Assembly: GCA_944325585.1 (NCBI GenBank)
Contig: CALVAS010000006.1
Span: 1 to 46,457 of the forward strand
DNA: 46,457 nucleotides
Origin: Candidatus Gastranaerophilales bacterium
GTDB taxonomy: Bacteria; Cyanobacteriota; Vampirovibrionia; Gastranaerophilales; Gastranaerophilaceae
Direction: 5' to 3'
The notes under the pieces are model-generated. The model saw nothing but the letters and a program-made list of their open reading frames with translations. It was not told the DNA's origin and made no database searches. Positions within the stretch are counted from its first letter, which is position 1. The number at the start of each line of letters is the position of its first letter. The position numbers were made by a program, and so were the translations under genes. This document shows positions 44,456 through 45,096 of this stretch, one piece after another.

Positions 44456-44698
44456 ATGGGTAGTAAGATTTTCGGAATATCAAATAATCCTGTTTCAACA
44501 ATAGAATCAGCTTTAGGGTTAAAACCTTTTGTGATAAAGAATCCAAAGCAGTATCCGGATAGAATTTTAAAACCATTGATAAATACAAAGGACAGTTTTG
44601 TTTCATGTGAACGTCAGAAAGAAGCAAATGCTTTTATAAAGATGAGAAACGGAATGGGCAAGCTGATGCCTCAATTCAGCCATAAGAATAAAGTTTAA
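44456..44698 (+). CDS. Unknown 80-aa protein
   Basis: The small basic protein begins MGSKIFGISNNPVSTIESAL and contains the Pro-rich stretch FVIKNPKQYPDRILKPLIN. It has no signal or membrane segment and no family I recognise. The ATG is one base after the TPM-protein stop codon with AGAGGG just upstream, so the two are translationally coupled. The tRNA-Val-like repeat array begins right after its stop. Confidence 0.6.
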   Translation: MGSKIFGISNNPVSTIESALGLKPFVIKNPKQYPDRILKPLINTKDSFVSCERQKEANAFIKMRNGMGKLMPQFSHKNKV

Positions 44699-44700
44699 AA

Positions 44701-44990
44701 GGAAACTCGCAGGGCTCCGCTTTCAGGCTAAGTGTCGAAAAGAAGGAGAAAGGCGGCATAAGCTGTCGGCAAATCGAAAATTTTTGAAAATTGAATAAAA
44801 AAAAATGGGCGATTAGCACTCTGCCGAACAAACGATTGAGTATCGTTTGTGAGAGGGGTAGCGCATCGAAAACTAAAGAATAAATGGGCGATTAGCAAGG
44901 ACTCCGCTTTTCGACTGAGTGTCGAAAAGGAGGAGGGAAGGTAGCGCAAGCTGCCAACAAGCCCTAAACCTTGAAAGTTGAATAAAAAAT
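44701..44990 (+). repeat. Tandem tRNA-Val-like structured repeat array
   Basis: Three imperfect units precede the intact tRNA-Val. Units B (44807-44885) and C (44886-44990) start with GGGCGATTAGC and later contain GGTAGCGCA. These match the 5' end and D-arm of the tRNA (GGGCGATTGGC and GGTAGCGCA), but 38-43 bases fill the D-loop position. The insert folds as a 9-bp hairpin with loop TGAGT in both (arms ACAAACGAT/ATCGTTTGT in B, CTTTTCGAC/GTCGAAAAG in C), so the stems differ yet still pair. Unit A (44701-44806) is a more decayed copy of C. In C and A a second hairpin follows (GGTAGC-GCAA-GCTGCC; GGCGGC-ATAA-GCTGTC). Units end in GAATAAA-type A-rich tails. Nothing protein-coding is supported in this 292-bp stretch. 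Confidence 0.7.
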
Positions 44991-45063
44991 GGGCGATTGG
45001 CGCAGTTGGTAGCGCATCACATTGACGTTGTGAGGGTCACGTGTTCGAGTCACGTATCGCCCA
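44991..45063 (+). tRNA. tRNA-Val (anticodon GAC)
   Basis: The acceptor stem is GGGCGAT/ATCGCCC with discriminator A. The D-arm is GCGC-AGTTGGTA-GCGC, and the anticodon stem TCACA/TGTGA holds the loop TTGACGT, giving GAC. The T-arm reads CACGTGTTCGAGTCACGT. CCA is not encoded. It is the last and only complete member of the repeat series before it. Confidence 0.95.
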
Positions 45064-45096
45064 GTTACTTTTTCTTTACCGAAAAGAAAAAGTAAC
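45064..45096 (+). terminator. Hairpin after tRNA-Val, probable terminator
   Basis: GTTACTTTTTCTTT (45064-45077) pairs perfectly with AAAGAAAAAGTAAC (45083-45096), loop ACCGA. There is no T-run after it, so it may act as a processing signal instead. The next 70 nt hold no gene. Confidence 0.55.

Follow-up and report, generated by a model that had tools for sequence, protein, structure and literature searches.

A tRNA-Val array in Gastranaerophilales as a candidate local product of DNA stem-loop repeats that settle in loops

The window analysed here (46,457 nucleotides; contig C6 in a draft genome from Candidatus Gastranaerophilales bacterium that comprises 1.76 Mb in 105 contigs) contains a tandem array of two partial tRNA-Val copies and one decayed unit upstream of an intact tRNA-Val gene; in both partial copies the D-loop is replaced by a hairpin of 39-43 nt. 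The pattern goes far beyond what chance would give: 38 of 40 relatives contain related copies, as do 259 of the 286 genomes sampled from the order. Judging by sequence, we lean slightly towards the view that the array is one local product of stem-loop repeats of DNA, confined to Gastranaerophilales, which spread into loops and are accompanied by tandem duplication of tRNA ends. Watson-Crick covariation of the stems, inversion of the loops and loss of the Val array in congeners favour a mobile palindrome acting at the DNA level over a functional RNA. This points to a form of mobile DNA that is very small, little known and tolerant of landing sites in essential genes. Searches of an open-licence library turned up no earlier description of the element.

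The array at tRNA-Val(GAC)

All features of the array lie on the forward strand. Its downstream end is, as the earlier note had it, an intact tRNA-Val(GAC) gene at 44991-45063. Units B (44807-44885) and C (44886-44990) both start with GGGCGATTAGC, which corresponds to tRNA-Val nt 1-11 (44807-44817 and 44886-44896, respectively); a hairpin follows, tRNA sequence resumes with GGTAGCGCA at 44857 in B and at 44940 in C to give the 3' half of the D-arm (44857-44867 and 44940-44948), and an A-rich leader-like tail completes the unit. The insert of unit B (B-type, 39 nt, 44818-44856) reads ACTCTGCCGA-ACAAACGAT-TGAGT-ATCGTTTGT-GAGAGG; it is a conserved order-wide repeat and recurs, letter for letter, at this genome's tRNA-Leu(TAG). 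The insert of unit C (C-type) is 43 nt long and spans 44897-44939. The arrangement described in the earlier note for these two units, i.e., a tRNA 5' start, an insert with a 9-bp stem around a TGAGT loop, and the 3' side of the D-arm, is borne out, the inner stems and loops occupying 44828-44850 and 44907-44929. Unit C additionally has a second hairpin, GGTAGC-GCAA-GCTGCC (44940-44955), which is not seen in unit B. Both units are more stable than dinucleotide shuffles (z of -3.1 for B and -4.1 for C).

Unit A (44701-44806), directly preceded by the stop codon of a small ORF at 44698, is a decayed C-type unit that retains the A-rich leader-like tail and has no tRNA 5' fragment. Its hairpin is at 44715-44748 (loop TAAGT, 44729-44733). 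This unit had been thought to keep both its fold and the pairing of its second hairpin; the latter is indeed present in degraded form (44752-44767), but the stem is mismatched and the fold is no better than shuffles (z -0.6), so that kept pairing in unit A makes weak evidence. A search of the array with Rfam 15 covariance models gave tRNA as the sole match above threshold.

Two other features adjoin the tRNA gene and its partial copies. Directly 3' of tRNA-Val, at 45064-45096, there is a perfect 14-bp inverted repeat, A/T-rich and resembling a terminator hairpin. A leader motif, approximately TTGA(A/C)AA(C/T)TnAATA, lies 30 nt upstream of tRNA genes at many loci of the order; in the window it is seen at 44866-44885 and 44970-44990, duplicated along with each unit. 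The motif is found at 38 of 58 array-bearing tRNAs, at 19 of 68 other tRNAs, and at none of the shuffled leaders.

The make-up of the array at tRNA-Val differs between species of one genus, where the units follow one another as C-B-C, C-C-C, C-C or alternating C and B, or where there is just a single B or a decayed C. There is no array at tRNA-Val in two genomes of that genus (G007, G008), nor in one of another genus (G019). Such variability among congeners indicates that the array is dispensable and labile.

The hairpin element and its settings

The core of the element, about 39-43 nt, has the form ACTCTGCCGA-stem-TNAGT-stem-GAGAGG. The outer frame is near invariant across the order, which suggests that it is recognised by something, and the stems are variable. 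Among 20 aligned hairpins, 9 of the 10 inner-stem pairs vary on both sides, more than in any shuffle, and the changes are two-sided in 45 cases and one-sided in none; the covariation proposed in the earlier note is thus real. G-T pairs make up only 7 of the 858 stem pairs in 92 stem-verified copies. Since the evolution of an RNA helix is expected to go via G-U states, pairing seems to be maintained at the level of DNA, through copying or through correction of one arm by the other; part of the scarcity of G-T may come from copies being young and homogenised. The apical part may be exchanged or turned around. Loci L096 and L145 have one stem in common with loops TAAAT and ATTTA, respectively, locus L016 has the inverted loop ACTTA, the complement of TAAGT, and an apical hairpin of quite different kind can stand inside the conserved frame. 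Loop orientation is nonetheless heavily skewed (TNAGT in 208 cases vs 8 inverted), and the loop sequence may therefore serve some other purpose. A putative kink-turn-like reading of CTC-TGCC-GA/GA-GAG and a putative ACT/AGT loop pseudoknot are both possible. Bases flanking ACTC...GAGAGG differ by target; GTAG comes after the element mainly where the tRNA provides it.

Some matches of the Val array sequence among the relatives are to tRNA alone; the majority take in dispersed copies as well as hairpins beside other tRNAs. The genome of the window itself has further copies at tRNA-Pro, tRNA-Leu(TAG) and tRNA-Lys, with two more units at tRNA-Pro(GGG). The count for the order was obtained with a covariance model of the hairpin; in a sample of 292 genomes from the phylum, none of the matches listed lies outside the order, and class and phylum neighbours are listed without a match. 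A scan of named genomes with the B-type core gave at least 116 stretches, including the 92 stem-verified copies that form the set for the counts of pairs and of placement. Relatives that share this pattern go by the names Candidatus Gastranaerophilales or Melainabacteria; pattern matches in Sulfurovum, Nitrosomonas, Oscillatoria, Erythrobacter, Lachnospiraceae and others have no hairpin stem and were dismissed.

In this set, 45 of the 92 copies have a tRNA within 300 nt downstream on either strand, vs about 2.2 expected. The tRNA is on the same strand in 35 cases and on the opposite strand in 10, with about one expected for each. Together with the copies in relatives, this association refutes the alternative named in the earlier note, a local duplication in decay. 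Although unit A is decayed, a tandem duplication of the tRNA 5' end that is purely local is hardly credible given the spread across the order and recurrence at many different tRNAs and at non-tRNA sites.

On the same strand, each unit repeats in tandem the leader and the tRNA 5' end; the hairpin occupies the D-loop, and an intact tRNA lies downstream. The left breakpoint could be placed in 43 tRNA units and follows tRNA nt 11-12 in 31 of them; where measurable, tRNA sequence mostly restarts at nt 17-20 and stops at nt 26-35. In tRNA-Ile units the breakpoint is at nt 26-27 instead. Most tRNA units are not clean insertions, in that tRNA nt 12-17 are substituted by the hairpin. At locus L120 (5083-5420), a near-complete copy with trailer stands in tandem behind an intact tRNA-Pro. 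In the D-loop of this copy, a 41-nt hairpin separates ...CAGTTTG precisely from GTAGC..., and no target bases are duplicated; the T-loop of the same copy holds an unrelated palindrome of 84 nt. At locus L052 the hairpin occupies the same position, between two conserved G residues, again cleanly and without target duplication. Units on the opposite strand copy the reverse complement of the tRNA 3' end and have the hairpin in or near the T-loop, as is the case with tRNA-Leu(CAA), Arg, Phe and Glu; the antisense unit at locus L148 carries the 3' end of tmRNA.

The remaining copies lie within other palindromic repeats, for example CCCTCCC...GGGTGGG and TCATCCTGAGC...GCGAAGGATC, and nested hairpins are seen at loci L092 and L077. 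One genome (G049) has at least 16 identical 41-mer hairpins whose flanks differ, some being CCCTCCC palindromes and others resembling tRNA in antisense. Of the three suggestions in the earlier note, a mobile hairpin targeting the tRNA 5' region comes closest: the hairpin appears to be mobile, but its targets are loops generally (D-loop, T-loop, loops of other palindromes), at both ends of tRNA genes.

Some copies belong to larger assemblages. In G049, loci L221-L235 represent a composite dispersed repeat made of the CCCTCCC palindrome with the 41-nt hairpin and of a second hairpin (GAAATTTCTTAATGAGC... or GTCC..GGAC), these loci accounting for 16 of the identical 41-mers, and in G022 a larger dispersed repeat (GTCCGAGAAATTCTCGCGATAAGGAACGTGAGCGAG...) bears the hairpin in several near-identical copies (L025-L029). 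At loci L030, L031 and L038, contig ends cut into hairpin arrays; arrays that reach contig ends probably exceed their assembled length and break draft assemblies.

Possible routes of spread and competing explanations

The preferred reading would have the element spread as a hairpin that enters the loops of pre-existing genomic stem-loops. The targets would be the D-arm of tRNA genes entered from the 5' side, the T-arm entered on the other strand from the 3' side, and further dispersed palindromes, again in their loops. Insertions at tRNA genes would survive only if tandem duplication of the leader and the tRNA end leaves one intact tRNA, the visible result being partial, hairpin-bearing tRNA copies beside a working tRNA; further tandem duplication would give arrays. 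Transfer presumably goes via folded single-stranded DNA and may involve a trans-acting factor that recognises ACTCTGCCGA/GAGAGG; duplication would accompany or precede hairpin insertion, and the elements are probably selfish, or else neutral, and of no use to the host. The skewed loop orientation, the replacement of tRNA nt 12-17 in most tRNA units and the failure to find an enzyme count against this reading. The more specific proposal that Gastranaerophilales possess a novel transfer system for hairpins of single-stranded DNA, in which a host-encoded factor recognises the folded frame and hairpins are written into loops of DNA stem-loops, tRNA genes being safe harbours in that an intact tRNA is restored every time, is put forward tentatively, as a possibility that is on the whole rather unlikely.

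No mobilising enzyme was found among Y1 transposases, IS110 transposases and reverse transcriptases, each of which is missing from several copy-rich carriers. Y1_Tnp was detected in 11 of the 40 relatives, but not in the genome of the window, G006, G009 or G022, all of which have many copies. Size, imperfect palindromy and insertion without target duplication do resemble a REP/RAYT-like or IS200/IS605-derived non-autonomous element moved by a Y1 (HUH) transposase, and in G018 a Y1 gene is followed, after about 260 nt, by one copy (L185:1193-1244); that is the only one of 18 Y1 loci with a hairpin, and the element has no fixed GTAG or CGTC tag. Such an origin is very improbable, and RAYT/Y1 was ruled out as the mobiliser for most carriers. 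IS110 was ruled out as well, PF02371 being found in 6 of 40 genomes, in none of genus g1, and missing from most carriers. The presence of the reverse transcriptase domain RVT_1 is inconsistent (16 of 40 genomes, not in G000, G009 or G018).

The failure to find a candidate enzyme is in line with what remains the main rival, namely that no dedicated element or enzyme exists: where DNA is folded, errors of replication such as slipped realignment or a switch of template from one hairpin to a similar one would swap apical hairpins between stems and duplicate the adjacent leader with the tRNA end, and this hairpin would be common only because exchange favours it. Nested hairpins, inverted loops, the interchangeable apical hairpins within the ACTCTGCCGA...GAGAGG frame and duplications adjoining hairpins all agree with such a process. 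Yet pure slippage would not preserve the outer frame across the order while stems vary, and under general snap-back the tail of a unit should be complementary to the tRNA 5' end, which holds for few units only. Among 55 units, 3 fell below 5% in a first test and 10 fell below 10% in a second, vs 5.5 expected; inspection of L163 and L158 had prompted the idea that whole units arose by snap-back (A-A'-A), which is unsupported in general. We regard this main rival as unlikely. The second rival, a role as RNA, would have the units transcribed in the tRNA leader, where a multi-hairpin fold controls tRNA processing or supply. The units do stand directly upstream of tRNAs, the stems covary, the second hairpins have small loops, arrays recur at tRNA-Val of many species, and a few units (L163, L123) have acceptor-like closing stems; the latter are not significant overall and were rejected as a general RNA feature. 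The rarity of G-T pairs, the inverted loops, the congeners with no array or a different one, and the copies antisense to tRNA 3' ends or inside non-tRNA palindromes all disfavour both this role and the structured RNA family built on a tRNA that the earlier note had offered, and to judge from these patterns a functional RNA would be distinctly unlikely.

Known systems and significance

Several known systems share some properties with the element. The rtT repeats of the E. coli tyrT operon are likewise a tandem array beside a tRNA gene with a tRNA fragment in each unit, but there the fragment is the tRNA 3' end and the locus is single, whereas the present units derive from many tRNAs, hold their 5' (or antisense 3') ends and contain an inserted hairpin, and Rfam gave no match other than tRNA. 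Integron attC sites are imperfect hairpins, recognised as folded single strands and arranged in tandem arrays; no R box consensus, cassettes or integrase association is apparent here by eye. Palindromic repeats also serve as insertion targets for IS elements, such as IS1397, ISKpn1 and the IS110/IS1111 class, which insert into REP palindromes but carry genes, unlike the geneless hairpin of about 40 nt inserted here (PMC1525189). REP/REPIN repeats are defined by a GTAG or CGTC tag, the GTAG repeats also by association with RAYT, and CGTC REPs have no dedicated transposase (PMC3733652). Imperfect palindromes of 20-40 bp, tens of dispersed copies, and stem variants with paired changes are common to REPs and our hairpin. 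The latter differs in having no terminal tag, in its near-invariant outer frame with an internal loop, in its placement within the loops of tRNA arms and of palindromes of other kinds, in the single adjacency to Y1_Tnp where GTAG REPs flank the RAYT gene, and in the rarity of G-T pairs, which are often observed in GTAG repeats (PMC3733652). REP is thus the nearest in style, but neither its defining tag nor its RAYT association was found.

As a rule, the 3' end is the only part of an essential tRNA gene near which insertions are tolerated. In the present case, throughout a bacterial order, a palindrome of about 40 nt has repeatedly come to lie in D-loops and T-loops of tRNA copies, with an intact tRNA retained alongside. 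Many truncated tRNA copies arise in this way, and array ends are often contig ends, which matters for the annotation and assembly of gut genomes. If the DNA-level reading is true, the arrays would record the transfer of hairpins between loops of folded DNA, and it would become testable whether the unpaired loops of ordinary genes serve as targets in vivo.
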